A DNA stretch of 64,000 bases from Ignavibacteria bacterium (GCA_036262055.1 DATAJP010000002.1:330177-394176); one strand, 5' to 3'. Shown: positions 37,795 through 45,491, counted from the stretch's first letter. Numbers and translations are program-made. The notes: a model not told the origin generated them from the letters alone.

Positions 37795-40032
37795 ATGCAA
37801 TCAAGCCAAAAACTCCTAAAAGACTTCAACTTTAAGTTATTAAATTCACCTGATTTTAAAGAGGATAGTGTTCGTGAAGAAATTATATTACCTATTTTAA
37901 AAGCATTGGGTTATAATTCACAAAATATTATAAGAAGCAAAAATTTATTACATCCATTTTTAAAAATTGGTTCAAAGAAAAGACCAATAACAATAATTCC
38001 TGACTATTTATTAAAGGTGAAAGACAATTTTGCTTTTGTTTTGGATGCAAAAGCTCCTAATGAACAAATAACACAGGGCGATAATGTTGAACAAGTATTT
38101 AGTTATGCAATACATCCCGAAATTCGCGCAAAGTATTTTGCATTATCTAATGGCAGAGAATTTATTTTATTCCGGCAAGATATTGAAAAGCCACTTATAT
38201 ACTGCAATGTTAAGGATATAAATAAATATTGGGAACAACTTTATAAATATTTATCTCCGGAGTCTTTTCAAACAGGAAAAGAAATTATATATACACCTGT
38301 TATAGAAAAATCCAAAGAAGAAAAGTTTGATTATTTAAAACGTCCATTATTGGAAGAAATTCCTGTTAAAAAACGAGCTGCGAAAAGACACTTTGGCGTT
38401 CATGGTTATTTTACAAAACAGAGCTGGAATATCGTAGCTGAATATATAAAAAATTTCTCTCAACCCGGTGACATTATTTTAGATCCATATGGTGGAAGTG
38501 GTGTTACTTTAATTGAAGCCTTAATGAACGATAGAAAAGCAATTCATATTGATTTAAATCCAATGTCAGTATTTATTGTTAGCTCATTAATCGCTCCGGT
38601 TAAAGAACGAGAGTTTTTGGATGCATTCGATAGGGTTAAAAATTCCTATGTAAAAAACGAACCTAAATCCAAAGAAGAAATTAAGCAAGCTCTTAAAAAA
38701 TATCCTTATCCAAAAGGTTTTATTCTTCCTAAAAGTTCTGATGTAGAAAAAATTGAAGATTTATTTTCCGATAAACAACTTGCTCAACTTGCTTTTCTTA
38801 AACATTTAATAAATAAAGAAAAAAATAACAACATTAGAAACTCGTTGTTACTTGCATTTTCTAGCAGTGTTAACAAAGCAAATCTCACTTATCATCATTC
38901 GACATATGCCAGTGAAAATGCAGGCAATAGTGGCCCAATGATGTATTATCGCTATCGTCTTGCACCTCAGATTGTTAATTTAGATTTAATGGAAACTTTC
39001 ACAAAAAAGTTTTCAGCTGTGTTAAATGCTAAACGCGAAATACAATATAAAATTAACGAGCAGACAATTAGCAATGCATCAATCTATAAAGGAACCGCAA
39101 CAGATTTAAAACAAATAAAATCTGAAAGCATAGACTACATTTATACAGACCCGCCTTATGGAAATAAAATCCCCTATTTGGATTTATCCGTGATGTGGAA
39201 TGCATGGCTTGACCTTGAAGTAACTAAAAAGGATAGACAATTAGAAGCAATAGAAGGTGGTGAGCAAGAAAAAACTAAACAAGAATATTCAGAGTTAATT
39301 GCAAAATCTATTGAGGAAATGTATAGAGTTTTAAAGTTTGACAGATGGATGAGTTTTGTATTTGCTCATAAAGACCCTGAACTTTGGCACTTAATTTTAG
39401 ATAGTGCAGAAAGGGCAGGTTTTGAATACGCAGGTGCCGTTAAACAAGCGAATGGTCAAACAAGTTTTAAGAAAAGACAACATCCTTTCACGGTGCTTGC
39501 AGGACAATTAATAATTAACTTTAAAAAAGTCAAAAACCCTAAAGCAATTTTAAAAGCTCATTTAGGAATGGACATTAGTGAAATAATTCTTCAGACAGTC
39601 GAAGGTGTTATAGCACAACATAATGGTGCCACACTCGAACAAATAAATGATGAATTAGTAATTAAAGGTTTGGAATTGGGGTTTTTAGATTTATTAAAAA
39701 AAGAATATTCGGATTTAACACCAATATTATTAGATTCATTTGATTATGATGATGACACAGAATTATTTACTTTAAAAAAGAATGCAAAATTTAAAACTCA
39801 TGTTGATATACATTTAAGAATAAAATATTATCTCATTTCATATCTTCGACGCCAAAAACTCGAAAATAAATTTCCAACCTTAGAGCAAATTGTTTTCCAT
39901 ATTATGCCTCTTTTGAGAAATGGAGTTACGCCGGAACACCAAACAATATTAAATGTTTTAGAAACTGTTGCTGTTCGTCACGGTGCCGATACATGGAAAA
40001 TAAAAGAACACGGACAATTTGAATTATTCTAA
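37795..40032 (+). CDS. HsdR-N nuclease / adenine methyltransferase fusion
   Basis: A 745-residue single-chain restriction-modification candidate. Residues ~15-150 look like the HsdR N-terminal nuclease: EEIILPILKALGY, then IIPDYLLK and FAFVLDAKAP, giving PD-(D/E)xK residues D70 and D84xK86. A methyltransferase follows with SAM motif I at ~230 (IILDPYGGSGVTLIEAL) and N6-adenine motif IV DPPYG at 452-456, separated by a ~180-residue insertion that may hold target recognition. The C-terminal ~130 residues are helical. No helicase, specificity subunit or second R-M gene is nearby. It resembles type IIG layout; the family in detail is uncertain. Confidence 0.78.
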   Translation: MQSSQKLLKDFNFKLLNSPDFKEDSVREEIILPILKALGYNSQNIIRSKNLLHPFLKIGSKKRPITIIPDYLLKVKDNFAFVLDAKAPNEQITQGDNVEQVFSYAIHPEIRAKYFALSNGREFILFRQDIEKPLIYCNVKDINKYWEQLYKYLSPESFQTGKEIIYTPVIEKSKEEKFDYLKRPLLEEIPVKKRAAKRHFGVHGYFTKQSWNIVAEYIKNFSQPGDIILDPYGGSGVTLIEALMNDRKAIHIDLNPMSVFIVSSLIAPVKEREFLDAFDRVKNSYVKNEPKSKEEIKQALKKYPYPKGFILPKSSDVEKIEDLFSDKQLAQLAFLKHLINKEKNNNIRNSLLLAFSSSVNKANLTYHHSTYASENAGNSGPMMYYRYRLAPQIVNLDLMETFTKKFSAVLNAKREIQYKINEQTISNASIYKGTATDLKQIKSESIDYIYTDPPYGNKIPYLDLSVMWNAWLDLEVTKKDRQLEAIEGGEQEKTKQEYSELIAKSIEEMYRVLKFDRWMSFVFAHKDPELWHLILDSAERAGFEYAGAVKQANGQTSFKKRQHPFTVLAGQLIINFKKVKNPKAILKAHLGMDISEIILQTVEGVIAQHNGATLEQINDELVIKGLELGFLDLLKKEYSDLTPILLDSFDYDDDTELFTLKKNAKFKTHVDIHLRIKYYLISYLRRQKLENKFPTLEQIVFHIMPLLRNGVTPEHQTILNVLETVAVRHGADTWKIKEHGQFELF

Positions 40033-40074: not shown

Positions 40075-40539
40075 ATGAAAACAAATCTGAAATATTTATT
40101 TGGTGTAGTCGCAATTGTAATGATAACGGCAGTGGTTTTGTATTCCTGCTCGGGAGCAGGAACGACGGGAACGGGACAGAGCATAAAAAACACAAAGTGG
40201 ATGCTTGAGTCGCTTTACGGCGAGAGAGTCGACACGATGTATCTTACTTCCGGCAACGAGATTTCACTCAACTTCGCCGACAGCAGCCAGATGAACGGCA
40301 AAGCTCCCTGCAATCACTATTTCAGCACATATACCGTCACCGGAACAACGCTTACAATCGGTGCAATCGGAGCTACGAGAATGGCTTGCCCGGAGCTCGA
40401 CCTGGAGCAGAGATATTTCTCATTTCTCGGCAACGTAACGAGATACAGCATATCAAGCAATGCTTCCGGCAACCGCCTGACGTTTTATTCAGTCACCGAC
40501 GGTTTGACCACCACCGCAACATTCAGGAAGATGTATTAA
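40075..40539 (+). CDS. META-domain lipoprotein
   Basis: A 154-residue exported lipoprotein (signal MKTNLKYLFGVVAIVMITAV.. with YSCSG, Cys25). The mature part is one META domain, recognised by NTKWMLESLYGERV near its start, APCNHYFSTYTVTGTTLTIG in the middle and ACPELDLEQRYFSFLGNVTR before the last strand. META domains (HslJ-like) occur as periplasmic single or tandem modules with stress or envelope links and no known enzymology. A divergent paralogue follows at 40730. Confidence 0.85.
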   Translation: MKTNLKYLFGVVAIVMITAVVLYSCSGAGTTGTGQSIKNTKWMLESLYGERVDTMYLTSGNEISLNFADSSQMNGKAPCNHYFSTYTVTGTTLTIGAIGATRMACPELDLEQRYFSFLGNVTRYSISSNASGNRLTFYSVTDGLTTTATFRKMY

Positions 40540-40545
40540 CCAACT

Positions 40546-40618
40546 CAACGCAGATTACTAAGATTTTGTTATGATTTAAAATTTCTTTGATTATAGAATA
40601 TCATAAAAATCAGCGTTG
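40546..40618. repeat. Inverted repeat H (CAACGCAGATT type)
   Basis: CAACGCAGATT..ATTTTGTTATGATT on the left mirrors AATATCATAAAAAT..CAGCGTTG on the right, between the two META genes. Related words occur at 25406-25427. Confidence 0.6.
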
Positions 40619-40662
40619 AAATTGTTTCATCTTTCAAAAGAAAATAACTCCTTTCGGTCTGA

Positions 40663-40686
40663 AAGTCCTCTTCCAAAGGAGGACTT
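40663..40686. repeat. Short hairpin AAGTCCTC/GAGGACTT
   Basis: Perfect 8-bp stem, loop TTCCAAAG, between the two META genes. It could end the first transcript although no T-tract follows; it lies 44 bp before the second gene. Confidence 0.55.
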
Positions 40687-40729
40687 ATTCATTTAAACTT
40701 TTTTCAATTATTCGTATGTTACAAAACAT

Positions 40730-41161
40730 ATGAAGACTATAACAACCTTATCAAAATATTTTTTCCTTCCCTCATTACTGATTGCAGCATTTATATTTAT
40801 CTCCTGCTCAAGCTCGGGCTCCGAAAGAAAAATGAGCGGGCCTCCGTTTGAAAACACGATGTGGGCTCTTATATCAGTCACCGGTGATTCCGTAACCGCA
40901 GACTTTGACGTGAAATTCTCCACCGGGCAAGTCACCGGCACAGGACCGTGCAACAGTTTTACAGGAGTGTATAACCTGAACGGCACTGTAGTATCAATAA
41001 GCAAAATTTTATCAACGGATGTCGGATGTGCGCAGATACAAATGGAAGGAGAATATCTCCGGCTGCTTGGAGCGGCGCAGCGTTATGACATTCAAAATGG
41101 ATATCTGAAAATATTTACTTCGGTTGATTACAAAGTAATGACTTTCGCCCCTGCAAATTAA
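40730..41161 (+). CDS. META-domain lipoprotein (second copy)
   Basis: A 143-residue lipoprotein: MKTITTLSKYFFLPSLLIAA.. with ISCSS lipobox. The domain shows NTMWALISVTGDSVTADFDV, GTGPCNSFTGVYNLNGTVVS, the cysteine-containing TDVGCAQIQMEGEYLRLLGA, and YLKIFTSVDYKVMTF. Shared landmarks with the preceding gene, including the single GxC..N and GC motifs, make it a tandem paralogue. It is followed by the TMEM175-like gene after 15 bp, so these two may be co-transcribed. Confidence 0.82.
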   Translation: MKTITTLSKYFFLPSLLIAAFIFISCSSSGSERKMSGPPFENTMWALISVTGDSVTADFDVKFSTGQVTGTGPCNSFTGVYNLNGTVVSISKILSTDVGCAQIQMEGEYLRLLGAAQRYDIQNGYLKIFTSVDYKVMTFAPAN

Positions 41162-41176
41162 ACTCAACAAAGCTCA

Positions 41177-41743
41177 GTGAAAAAAGACCGGCTGGAGATG
41201 TTCAGTGACGGAGTTATTGCAATCATTATCACATTGATGGTGCTTGAAATAAAGCTTCCGGCATTTACATCCGATAATGTGCACGATGTAATCAGGCACG
41301 TGGGAGTTTATGCGCTGAGCTTCATTGTCATCGGGATTTTATGGCTCAACCACAATGCAATGTTCGAGCAGCTTGAAAAAGTTAACGCTTCAATCGTCTG
41401 GCTGAATTTTTTATTATTATTTTTTATGTCGCTCATCCCCCTGCCGACCGAAGCGCTTGGCTTGGATTTTTTTTCTTCTCAAAGCCACGTTTTTTATGGA
41501 GTAGTAATGACGCTGAATGCAGCGGCATACTCAACACTTCAGCTTGTAGTCAATAAAAATCTCACTCACATTCCCGAGAAAAACCGCCGCGACGTGAATA
41601 AGCTTAACTGGATTTGCACTGCGCTTTATGCAATCAGTATTCCGCTAAGCTTAATAAGCATTTACATCCCGACCGGAATTTTTATTTTAATCCCCGCGAT
41701 TTATTTCATTCCATCAAAGAAGCTGTCGCCTAATAGATTGTAA
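41177..41743 (+). CDS. TMEM175/DUF1211-type potassium channel protein
   Basis: A 188-residue six-helix membrane protein. The signature RLEMFSDGVIAIIITLMVLE and IKLP follows the TMEM175 R..xFSDG..AI..TL..LEI rule, the selectivity-region helix of bacterial TMEM175 channels. The GTG at 41177 is preferred as start, because the internal ATG at MFSDG would delete the conserved arginine region. Later helices include FIVIGILWLNHNAMF (the WLNH motif) and WICTALYAISIPLSLISIY. Channel function is inferred from the family. Confidence 0.85.
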   Translation: MKKDRLEMFSDGVIAIIITLMVLEIKLPAFTSDNVHDVIRHVGVYALSFIVIGILWLNHNAMFEQLEKVNASIVWLNFLLLFFMSLIPLPTEALGLDFFSSQSHVFYGVVMTLNAAAYSTLQLVVNKNLTHIPEKNRRDVNKLNWICTALYAISIPLSLISIYIPTGIFILIPAIYFIPSKKLSPNRL

Positions 41744-42042: not shown

Positions 42043-42318
42043 ATGGCGAAGATAAACGTTACAATAATAGACGCGACGGGCAACAAGGAGCAGGAAGCGA
42101 CTCTGCCCGATGATGCCCCGATAAAAAGAATCATGGAAGTCTTGCTTCCGAAAATGAAAATGCCTCTTACAGGACCCGACGGCGAACCGCTCTCATATAA
42201 GTTTCATCACAAAGCATCAGGCAAACAGCTCAAAGATAATCAGACCCTCTCAGAAGCCGGGGTGAAGGAAGGCGATGTCCTCCGGCTTCACCCGGAGATT
42301 ACAGCAGGAAGTTTATAA
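42043..42318 (+). CDS. YukD/ubiquitin-like protein
   Basis: A 91-residue beta-grasp (ubiquitin-fold) protein. Segments read NVTIIDATGNKEQEATLPDD (first hairpin), IKRIMEVLLPKMKMP (helix), YKFHHKASGKQLKDNQTLSE and AGVKEGDVLRLHPEITAG. The order matches ubiquitin strands and helix, including the KQL.DNQTL block that parallels KQLEDGRTL of ubiquitin. The C-terminus ends ITAGSL rather than GG, so it would need trimming after Gly89 for E1 activation, or it works without conjugation. In related YukD/E1/RING clusters the Ubl is the likely modifier. It lies 40 bp upstream of the 42359 gene. Confidence 0.82.
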   Translation: MAKINVTIIDATGNKEQEATLPDDAPIKRIMEVLLPKMKMPLTGPDGEPLSYKFHHKASGKQLKDNQTLSEAGVKEGDVLRLHPEITAGSL

Positions 42319-42358
42319 AACAACATAACATTATTTATAAAAAATAAATAAAGTTCAT

Positions 42359-43264
42359 ATGAAAAATAACTTCAGGTTTATCATCGTTTATATTTTTTTA
42401 CTTGCTTTAGTCTTCCCATACGGGCAGGTTTCCGCACAAACCACACCGCTAACAATAAAAGTTGTGGGATTTGATGTAAACAATAACTCCGAGCCAATAT
42501 CAGGTGCAACAGTAACACTCAATGGAGCCGGATTTCTCCAAACCGGAGTTGAAGGAATTTTAATATACGACCATAATTATAAAAAAGATCAGGTAATAAC
42601 AATAGCGGTAGATGCTAAAGGATATTTACCAAAATCAGTTACAATTACCGGTGAGACCTCTGAAGTAACCATTGCTCTTGAAAAGAAGCAAGCAAATGAC
42701 ATACCTCTTATAGTTCAGGTTGTAGATAAAAATACAAAACCTCTGGCCGGCGCACGTATATATATAGAACAAAATACAATGGGGGTAACTACAGACAACA
42801 ACGGTGAAGGTTATATATTGCTGAACGTCAGCGACCTCAACAAAAAAATCACTGTGGAAGTATCTAAAGAAGGATATAAAACAGCATTCTCTACAATCCC
42901 GAGTGAACTATTACAACCATCACAGGAGGCGCGCTTATATACAGTTTTTCTTGTGAAAAAAAGAGATTTAGTTGGTTTATCAGGAACGTGGAAATCAGGA
43001 TGGGGTGATGTAACTTTAAATATTACAGACGCTTCAGTTACCGGTTCATGGAAACAAGACAGCGAGAAAACAGGGCAGATAACGGAGGGTTCATTCGATG
43101 AAGATACCGGCGTTATGAGATTCAAATACAGCCAGCCCTGGAATAATGCAACCGGCACAACGGAATTTACATTATTCGAATCAGATACAGAATATACTTT
43201 CAGCGGAACATGGCAGCATGACGGCGGTGGAGGCGGGACATGGACTCTGACAAAAGCAAGATAA
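42359..43264 (+). CDS. Secreted protein with two carboxypeptidase-like domains
   Basis: A 301-residue exported protein in the Ubl cluster. A signal peptide (MKNNFRFIIVYIFLLALVFP) precedes two CarboxypepD_reg/CNA-B-like sandwiches at ~30-110 (NSEPISGATVTLNGAGFLQT) and ~117-195 (TKPLAGARIYIEQNTMGVTT), then a ~95-residue beta-barrel-like domain (GLSGTWKSGWGDVTLNITDA .. FSGTWQHDGGGGGTWTLTKA). No enzymatic motif is seen. Being secreted, it is probably not a conjugation enzyme; it may be an accessory or an unrelated passenger between the Ubl and E1 genes. Confidence 0.75.
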   Translation: MKNNFRFIIVYIFLLALVFPYGQVSAQTTPLTIKVVGFDVNNNSEPISGATVTLNGAGFLQTGVEGILIYDHNYKKDQVITIAVDAKGYLPKSVTITGETSEVTIALEKKQANDIPLIVQVVDKNTKPLAGARIYIEQNTMGVTTDNNGEGYILLNVSDLNKKITVEVSKEGYKTAFSTIPSELLQPSQEARLYTVFLVKKRDLVGLSGTWKSGWGDVTLNITDASVTGSWKQDSEKTGQITEGSFDEDTGVMRFKYSQPWNNATGTTEFTLFESDTEYTFSGTWQHDGGGGGTWTLTKAR

Positions 43265-43304
43265 TATAAAAATTAAGTATTAACAAACTTCTTATAAAAA
43301 CCAA

Positions 43305-43324
43305 GAGTATTAAAATACTCTTGC
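43305..43324. repeat. Short hairpin AAGAGTATT/AATACTCTT
   Basis: Perfect 9-bp stem with a 2-nt loop, in the 155-bp gap before the E1 gene. No T-tract, so not a clear terminator. Confidence 0.5.
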
Positions 43325-43419
43325 CAACTTCACCTCTTTTTAACACTTCAATTAAAGTAATTTCAAATTAATTTATCGTTAATTTGTGTAATTCGTGAAA
43401 TTAGTGGGTAAAATTTCTT

Positions 43420-44577
43420 ATGAAAATCGACGTTGATAATAAATATTCACGCTTTGAGTTAATTTCCTGGTGGGATCAAAGCATTCTCAAGAACGCAAAA
43501 ATTCTTGTAGTCGGATGCGGTGCGCTCGGAAATGAAATAGTGAAGAATCTTGCAATGCTCGGCGTTGGAAATATTTTTGTAGTCGATATGGATAAAGTCG
43601 AGAAATCGAATCTCACACGAAGCGTTTTGTTCCGTGAAGAAGACGAAGGAAAATACAAAGCCGAAATCATTGCAAAGCGCGCAAAGGAAATCAACAAAGA
43701 TGTAAACGTAAAATATTACGCAGTAAATATTTTTAATCTCGGGCTCGGTGTGTTCAAGGAAATGGATTTGGTAATCTGCGGGCTTGATAACCGCGAGGCA
43801 AGATTGTTCGTTAATCAATCATGCAGAAAAGCAAACAAAGTCTGGATTGACGGAGCAATCGAAGTGCTCACAGGAGTCGCAAGGGTTTTTTATCCCGAAA
43901 ATTCTCCGTGCTATGAATGCACAATGAGTGAAATTGATTATCAGCTTCTCAATAAAAGAAAATCCTGTCTGCTTCTTGGTATCGAAGACATCGAGCAAGG
44001 AAAAATTCCGACAACGCCGACTATCTCGTCAATCATTGCAGCAATTGAAGTTCAGGAAGCTGTGAAAGTACTGCACGGGTTTGATCAAAGCAGTATTCTC
44101 ATCGGTAAAGGATTTATATACAACGGAATCTCGAATGACTCGTATATAGTAGAGTATCAGGAAAAAGAAGACTGCGCTTCGCATTATAATTTTAAGAATT
44201 TTCATAAGTTTGACGCAAAGTTCAGCGAAGCAAAGATAAAAGATATTTTTGATTTCGGATGCAAACATTTTAATACAGAAAAATTCGAATTAATGTTTAA
44301 CAATGAAGTTGTATATGAATTATTCGACACGCAATCCGATTTGAAGAAAAAAATCTTCGCAAATATGAATACGATGAAAATCGATGACATAAAAGTTGAC
44401 GATAAGATTCTAAAAATGAAATTATTTCATTCGGTTTACAACAAGAGCGAGCTGTATGATTACATAAAAGATAAAACTTTGAAGGAGCTTAACATTCCTG
44501 TTAATGACATTCTAACTCTTGCAACGGGAAAAGAAGACTTGCATATTGAATTTTTACCTGAGGAAATTTTCATTTAA
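43420..44577 (+). CDS. ThiF/E1-like ubiquitin-activating enzyme
   Basis: A 385-residue E1-type adenylyltransferase. The Rossmann site GCGALGNEIVKNLAMLGVG (G32xGxxG37) is followed by VVDMDKVEKSNLTRSVLF with the conserved D56, N64 and R67, GLDNREAR at 121-128, and GKIPTTPTISSIIAAIEVQE at 194-213. C164-x2-C167 is one zinc pair. C183 in KRKSCLLL is the candidate thioester cysteine. Residues ~240-385 form an additional C-terminal domain not present in MoeB/ThiF; the central part may be beta-rich. It would adenylate the Ubl C-terminus. Its stop is 2 bp before the RING gene. Confidence 0.92.
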   Translation: MKIDVDNKYSRFELISWWDQSILKNAKILVVGCGALGNEIVKNLAMLGVGNIFVVDMDKVEKSNLTRSVLFREEDEGKYKAEIIAKRAKEINKDVNVKYYAVNIFNLGLGVFKEMDLVICGLDNREARLFVNQSCRKANKVWIDGAIEVLTGVARVFYPENSPCYECTMSEIDYQLLNKRKSCLLLGIEDIEQGKIPTTPTISSIIAAIEVQEAVKVLHGFDQSSILIGKGFIYNGISNDSYIVEYQEKEDCASHYNFKNFHKFDAKFSEAKIKDIFDFGCKHFNTEKFELMFNNEVVYELFDTQSDLKKKIFANMNTMKIDDIKVDDKILKMKLFHSVYNKSELYDYIKDKTLKELNIPVNDILTLATGKEDLHIEFLPEEIFI

Positions 44578-44579
44578 AC

Positions 44580-45491
44580 CTGAAAACACAAACCTGTCCA
44601 TATTGCCATAGTTCAATCAAGCCCGGTGCTGATATTATTAAATGTCCCGTGTGCGAAACTCCGCATCACAAAGAATGCTGGGAGGAAAACAAAGGATGCA
44701 CAACTTACGGATGCGAAGAAAATCCTGAAGTAAAAAAACAAAAACAGGAAAACCTCGATATTGCAAACGAAGTACCCCGCGGTGTAATCCCCCCAATCAA
44801 CACAATTGAACCAATCCAGCCAGTTAACGAAACACAAAATATTCCCGGCGCAGGAATACCCGGTTTTGAAGGAATGATTCCCTGTTCCGAATGCGGACAG
44901 CTTGTTGATGCAAATTCATCATATTGCAAATTCTGTGGACATAACATCATCCTCAAATCCAGCGAAGAAGACCGTCAAAAGTTTAATGAACAAGTTGAGA
45001 CTGCTTATAAACAAAAAGCATCGTTCCATAAAAAAAGAATTTTTTTCCTTTTTGCTTCAATTTTTCTTTTATTCATACTTATTATATACGGAATCTATAA
45101 AGTCTATAATTACTTTGACCAAAACATAACCTCAGATGAATATGCAATAGCAAAAACACTCGATAACTGGGAAGCGGCATGGGAAAATGAAAACTTAAAC
45201 GAGTATTCAAAATATCTTACGGCAGATTATGGATATTACGGAAGCGATAATAAAAAAATTGATAAGGAAACTCGTCTAAAGCGCATCGATTATACCTTCG
45301 ATAGATATAATTATATTAACATCAATATTGACAGCTTGAAATATCAAAAGATAAATGACAATCCTGTTGAGTATAAAGTAACTTTTTATGAAAAATATAA
45401 TTCGGATAAATTTAAATCCGACGGACAAAAAACTTTATACATGCGGAAAGAAAATGATGAATGGAAAATCTACAGAGAAGAGTTTAAATAA
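44580..45491 (+). CDS. Membrane-anchored prokaryotic RING protein, NTF2-like C-term
   Basis: A 303-residue protein if begun at the CTG at 44580, 2 bp after the E1 stop; a GTG at 44649 would remove the first zinc ligands. Residues 6-45 are a Prok-RING finger: CPYCHSSIKPGADIIKCPVC then HHKECW and GCTTYGC. A second zinc ribbon follows at 102-119 (CSEC..CKFC). One membrane helix lies at ~154-174 (IFFLFASIFLLFILIIYG) after a KKR, so the RING faces the cytosol. Residues ~188-303 form an NTF2/SnoaL-like domain outside. Potential E3 for the Ubl above. The start codon is inferred. Confidence 0.85.
   Translation: MKTQTCPYCHSSIKPGADIIKCPVCETPHHKECWEENKGCTTYGCEENPEVKKQKQENLDIANEVPRGVIPPINTIEPIQPVNETQNIPGAGIPGFEGMIPCSECGQLVDANSSYCKFCGHNIILKSSEEDRQKFNEQVETAYKQKASFHKKRIFFLFASIFLLFILIIYGIYKVYNYFDQNITSDEYAIAKTLDNWEAAWENENLNEYSKYLTADYGYYGSDNKKIDKETRLKRIDYTFDRYNYININIDSLKYQKINDNPVEYKVTFYEKYNSDKFKSDGQKTLYMRKENDEWKIYREEFK

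Follow-up and report, generated by a model that had tools for sequence, protein, structure and literature searches.

Does a compact gene cluster of an Ignavibacteria bacterium encode a ubiquitin-like conjugation pathway and, if so, where are the enzymes that the cluster lacks? The cluster is located at 42043-45491 on the + strand of the 64 000-nt stretch of DNA analysed here (hereafter the window). It contains the genes of a ubiquitin-like modifier (Ubl), an activating enzyme (E1) and a membrane RING protein, with the gene of a secreted protein between the first two. All four open reading frames (ORFs) were found on the + strand where the initial annotation had placed them. We conclude, with a probability of about 0.82, that these genes belong to a complete ubiquitin-like conjugation cascade (E1-E2-(RING)-JAB), with membrane-anchored RING and JAB proteins, encoded at two chromosomal loci.

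E2 and JAB genes at a second locus

A total of 294 genomes of the class were searched for E1 orthologues, and close orthologues (55-67% identity) were confined to the window's own family. Neighbourhoods were compared over up to 19 kb around each E1 orthologue of this family. For the window proteins, the Pfam matches given are those above the cut-off. The initial annotation had considered that a conjugating enzyme (E2) and a JAB peptidase were absent, so that either the E1 transferred the Ubl directly or these parts were encoded elsewhere. A search of the genome located both of them, adjacent to each other, at a second locus (190363-191993), and the second of these alternatives was thus the correct one. 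Direct transfer from the E1 to the targets is not needed since a co-inherited E2 is present. In the window genome, the E2 gene (183 aa, G000:C3 191442-191993) begins 90 bp after the JAB gene (329 aa, G000:C3 190363-191352). The JAB-E2 pair is conserved and has the same flanking genes, including topA, in most genomes.

The Pfam family UQ_con gave one match per genome in 20 family genomes; a set of 14 control genomes had no match. No other E2 of the cascade type was found elsewhere among the 294 genomes of the class. The HPN motif and C106 are invariant in 15 E2 sequences, and the E2 matches UBE2N-type E2s. The JAMM residues of the JAB (E53, H118xH120, S128 and D131) are invariant in 15 sequences, its best solved match is Rpn11 (7e-11) and one membrane helix is present in 15/15. 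Most of the JABs have a LysM domain. Since PF14464 also matched other, shorter ORFs in system-free genomes, a JAB-family profile was used to remove such noise.

Ubl, E1, E2 and JAB are jointly present in 21/29 family genomes and jointly absent from 8/29, so that co-occurrence of the two loci is perfect. Apparent gaps in G197 (E1) and G201 (E2) lie at contig ends. On the topA tree, the absences of the cascade require three separate changes. No evidence for a single system is stronger than the joint loss, on three occasions, of genes at two unlinked loci. Across 395 genomes sampled from the phylum, the Ubl was confined to the window's family, and the 14 family E1s form one clade. The simplest reading is one acquisition followed by vertical descent.

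Gene order in the family

The genes of Ubl, E1 and RING follow one another in this order on one strand in every family locus with enough contig. The gap between Ubl and E1 is 0-234 bp (930 bp in one locus) and that between E1 and RING is -4 to +107 bp. A MenA-like gene is found on the opposite strand, downstream of the RING gene, in most of these loci. Gene order in related genomes had been proposed as a test of the cluster; it is conserved, and this constant arrangement indicates that co-location is not due to chance. The compact set was first described as containing four genes, of which three were retained. The secreted protein (42359-43264, +), which has a CarboxypepD_reg-like Pfam match and an N-terminal signal-like stretch, has a counterpart in 0/19 orthologous loci. 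Its gene is therefore not part of the set and was excluded as an insertion private to the window genome.

The modifier

The Ubl (91 aa, 42043-42318, +) matches the Pfam families YukD (1.1e-14) and ubiquitin (2.8e-5), and its family assignment (YukD/ubiquitin fold) is unambiguous by profile. Across the family it is 82-93% identical to the window copy. For comparison, identity is 54-66% for E1, 34-48% for RING and 64-81% for topoisomerase I. The modifier is far more conserved than its enzymes, like eukaryotic ubiquitin. Identity is still about 61-73% outside the phylum, in Planctomycetota, Armatimonadota/Zipacnadia, Lentisphaerota, Clostridia and Synergistota. These relatives were located with the Ubl alignment as query; a contig scan with the window E1 alone gave no match.

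The sequence P-E-I-T-A-G is found near the C-terminus in 79/80 such Ubl loci, the 80th being truncated by a contig end. The protein ends immediately after the Gly of this motif in 30/80 loci and, in the remaining loci, continues into tails of unrelated length and sequence. In the window Ubl, PEITAG is followed by a 2-residue tail (Ser-Leu). Gly89, the predicted mature end, pairs with Gly76 of ubiquitin in an alignment. As judged from the sequences, a constant Gly with variable tails is typical of a modifier that is made as a precursor and then processed. Four Ubl frames continue past PEITAG (L105 10001, L120 10001, L139 4760 and L141 5887). Their extensions of 107-318 residues are membrane or lipoprotein-like, and these proteins are possible Ubl-fusion precursors.

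The activating enzyme

The E1 (385 aa, 43420-44577, +) consists of an adenylation domain, which includes C183, and a C-terminal UFD-like domain (residues 257-385; 44188-44574, +), the predicted docking site of the E2. It matches Pfam ThiF at 7.7e-53. R67, K80, D123 and C183 are invariant in 46 E1 sequences from several phyla, in agreement with the earlier designation of C183 as candidate thioester cysteine. By our reading, the first three would correspond to the MoeB adenylation residues Arg73, Lys86 and Asp130 (PMC12355090). In a profile search, the best solved relative was eukaryotic UBA1 (4e-36), ahead of ThiF (2e-19). The NCBIfam cut-offs were both missed (142 of 275 bits for ThiF, 89 of 377 for MoeB TIGR02355). 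One divergent relative (L051) has lost both members of the first CxxC pair together with both members of the later C-x-x-H pair. This joint loss fits a shared zinc site formed by the two pairs.

An AlphaFold2 model of the full-length E1 had a pLDDT of 90.7. Residues 3-255 of the model align to MoeB/ThiF (Z about 31), and alignment to UBA3, SAE2 and UBA1 extends through residues 379-381. The last 129 residues modelled alone gave a pLDDT of 94. With this domain as query, the 30 best rows of VIA-align were all eukaryotic E1 chains over their UFDs (Z 5.6-9.0), and the first unrelated row had a Z of 5.3. The domain was assigned as a UFD because of this ranking, its position in the chain and the match of the full-length model. 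In other phyla, the UFD-like domain contains two CxxC pairs, likely a zinc site (e.g. L082 11024-11416); the Ignavibacteria E1s are without them.

The RING protein

The RING protein (44580-45491, +) matches Prok-RING_1 (3.9e-13), a zinc ribbon and, at its C-terminus, an NTF2-like family (Cds6_C, 2e-11). The eight zinc ligands of the RING (C4HC3) are invariant in 19 proteins, which together with the unambiguous profile match supports a zinc-binding RING in this protein, the absence of which had been named at the outset as a refuting outcome. One helix is predicted at residues 154-172, with five K/R before and one after it, and positive residues are on its N side in 19/19 orthologues. The NTF2-like domain is thus predicted to be outside. 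Pfam families and topology prediction agree on the architecture first described (RING, one membrane helix, NTF2-like domain).

In this frame, no ATG, GTG or TTG occurs after the upstream stop and before the first RING cysteine. Because a few relatives are likewise devoid of a usual start in this interval, translation probably begins at a rare codon, CTG or some other, and is coupled to the E1 stop. A -1 frameshift fusing E1 and RING was considered because of a TTTAAAC heptamer at 44573-44579 that overlaps the E1 stop. The frameshift was ruled out by the register of this heptamer, which is that of the RING frame and not of the E1 frame, and by the gaps of -4 to +107 bp in relatives.

Almost all family genomes encode a further membrane protein with Prok-RING_1 (the second RING type, about 370-510 aa), the gene of which is close to secE/nusG/rplK. 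It occurs with or without the cascade (e.g. L198 5951-7462, -; also L197, L202 and L204).

Proposed pathway

The following sequence of reactions is proposed. The JAB of the second locus would cut the Ubl tail off after Gly89. The E1 would then adenylate Gly89 and hold the Ubl as a thioester on C183. Its UFD would dock the E2, and the Ubl would pass to C106 of that enzyme. The RING protein would carry E2~Ubl to inner-membrane targets. Finally, the membrane-anchored JAB, with LysM usually outside, would take the tag off again. The pathway would thus be a membrane-associated, reversible Ubl conjugation, perhaps involved in envelope protein quality control. Gene order and profiles support the idea of the initial annotation that Ubl, E1 and RING take part in conjugation; a role of the RING protein as the ubiquitin ligase (E3) and membrane-proximal targets, which it also proposed, are kept here as presumptive.

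The loci are fixed and vertically inherited, which points to housekeeping, perhaps the control of envelope proteins, more than to defence against phages. A more speculative proposal, which we put forward as tentative, is that of a non-defensive family-core system in which the RING writer and the JAB eraser span the inner membrane and the state of the envelope or cell wall gates tagging on the cytoplasmic face. The NTF2-like domain and the peptidoglycan-binding LysM would both lie outside.

Several points weigh against a complete cascade. The conserved C-terminus of the Ubl has a single Gly instead of Gly-Gly, and Bacillus subtilis YukD was reported not to be conjugated (PMC1779556). Foldseek gave no E-value below 0.001 for the UFD-like domain alone, and the UFD assignment is therefore regarded as good but not absolute. 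LysM is missing from some JABs. In the genus g7, the gene of the RING-transmembrane-NTF2 protein is retained after the loss of those of Ubl, E1, E2 and JAB. As the family set occupies two loci, a single operon was treated as a variable and not as an essential feature of such systems.

Flanking genes

A 745-aa protein encoded at 37795-40032 (+) matches PglX and type II methyltransferase models and is possibly defence-related. Its gene sits 2 kb upstream of the Ubl gene, and no counterpart was seen in the orthologous loci. Immediately upstream of the Ubl gene (40075-41743, +) are two genes of META-domain lipoprotein-like proteins and one of a TMEM175-type channel. A META-like gene is likewise upstream in two near relatives (L035 and L036).

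Alternative explanations

The alternative that survives best accepts the cascade without the RING protein as its E3; the RING protein would instead be a membrane protein independent of it, encoded in the same operon. In the two g7 genomes read, the RING gene (L196 8033-8857, -; L201 7964-8935, +) is beside the same MenA-like gene and its zinc ligands are intact. Its retention there indicates that the protein acts, or can come to act, in something other than conjugation. It evolves fast (34-48% identity), and the presence of the second RING protein does not depend on the cascade either. However, the RING gene adjoins that of the E1 wherever the family has an E1, and Prok-RING_1 genes belong to the corresponding operons of several phyla. 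It was also lost in the two other loss lineages (G090/G147, where only the second RING type is found, and G205, where there is no RING of either type). We consider this alternative possible but rather unlikely, and infer that the RING protein is the E3 of the cascade.

An antiphage defence system related to the E1-E2 conjugation of BIL, BUB or CBASS would have the same kinds of enzymes. PADLOC models for E1-E2/BilD and JAB match the E1 and the JAB weakly, and the methyltransferase gene is 2 kb upstream in the window genome. On the other hand, the loci are fixed and inherited family-wide and are not sporadic islands, Ubl and E2 have no PADLOC match, and the Ubl was found in no phage or plasmid record searched. 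The flanking genes other than the methyltransferase are not defence-like. A defence function is thus improbable.

Still less credible is a sulfur-carrier system, in which the Ubl would be of the ThiS/MoaD/CysO kind, the E1 a ThiF/MoeB-type activator and the JAB a CysO-type hydrolase. It could explain the MoeB/ThiF-like adenylation domain (Z 31), and a cysteine-synthase-like/JAB/MoaD-like/E1 cluster exists in other families of the class. It does not account for the co-inheritance of an E2 that bears HPN and the Cys, for the UFD-like domain or for the RING in the operon; sulfur-metabolism genes were found at neither locus, and the E1 is far under the NCBIfam cut-offs for ThiF and MoeB. As a side observation, L057, L058, L061 and L062 contain cysteine-synthase-like, JAB-like, MoaD-like and distant E1 genes, and resemble the sulfur-carrier cysteine pathway.

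A YukD-type component of type VII secretion (T7SS) followed by unrelated E1 and RING genes, as might be proposed from the best Pfam family of the Ubl (YukD), can be dismissed, since it is contradicted by WXG100 in 0/29 family genomes (the B. subtilis control was detected), the Ubl always adjoins the E1, and its conserved terminal Gly is lacking in T7SS EsaB/YukD (PMC11217815).

Comparison with known systems

The preferred reading, a complete cascade at two loci, was compared with related gene sets. In other phyla (Planctomycetota, Armatimonadota, Clostridia and Synergistota), the corresponding genes form one operon, which encodes Ubl, E1, E2, a trypsin-like protease, a JAB (often with LysM) and a Prok-RING_1 protein with membrane helices. 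HPN and JAMM motifs are retained, and the E2 of Clostridia is a fusion protein with an FHA domain and several membrane segments. Membrane RING and JAB proteins in these operons make the membrane a theme common to the lineages. Relatives exist in cultured isolates, e.g. Massiliimalia massiliensis and Lachnospiraceae MC2017.

Burroughs, Iyer and Aravind (2011, Mol Biosyst 7:2261) reportedly put forward that bacteria have YukD conjugation, E1s with a UFD and RING-type E3s. PMC4197634 attributes to Burroughs et al. 2011 related operons of Actinobacteria, Planctomycetes and Acidobacteria. The predicted operons reportedly contain the same kinds of genes, and the Clostridia and Planctomycetota loci located in this analysis look like them. 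Relative to this description, the Ignavibacteria family set is split over two loci, its E2 stands alone and has neither FHA nor membrane segments, its RING has an NTF2-like domain, and a trypsin-like protease is found at neither locus. The present system is a variant of the kind predicted in 2011, characterised by two separate loci, a free-standing E2, an NTF2-like domain on the RING protein and a membrane-anchored JAB, with strong evidence that its genes are inherited together.

The archaeal cascade of Caldiarchaeum subterraneum, which was reconstituted (PMC5654768), also comprises E1, E2, a small RING (srfp), an Rpn11-like JAMM protease and a precursor modifier (PMC5654768, PMC6043591). The Ignavibacteria set differs from it by a YukD-like modifier with a single terminal Gly and by membrane-anchored RING and JAB; it is bacterial and not in one operon. 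The eukaryotic E1s UBA3, SAE2 and UBA1 share with the window E1 the adenylation fold, the conserved Cys, a CxxC zinc pair and the C-terminal UFD, and the model can be aligned to them over about residues 4-381. In contrast to them, the window E1 (385 aa) has no separate catalytic-cysteine half-domain. B. subtilis YukD/EsaB is of the same Pfam family and fold as the window Ubl and differs as an unconjugated part of T7SS without terminal Gly or E1 partner (PMC1779556, PMC11217815).

BIL and BUB (Hoer 2024; Chambers 2024; cited in PMC12687455) likewise combine Ubl, E1, E2 and JAB in bacteria. Compared with them, the Ignavibacteria set has a UFD-like E1, a RING, a membrane topology and family-wide vertical inheritance; its Ubl is a single YukD-type domain of 91 aa, whereas BilA reportedly has two tandem Ubl domains. 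Bacterial Ubl-conjugation operons characterised to date are described as mainly involved in phage defence (PMC12687455). The set presented here looks, by contrast, like a stable pathway that is passed on vertically, is placed at the membrane and combines a UFD-bearing E1, an HPN-type E2, a RING and an Rpn11-like JAB, and it offers a compact set of five proteins for studying UFD, RING and JAMM protease together in bacteria.

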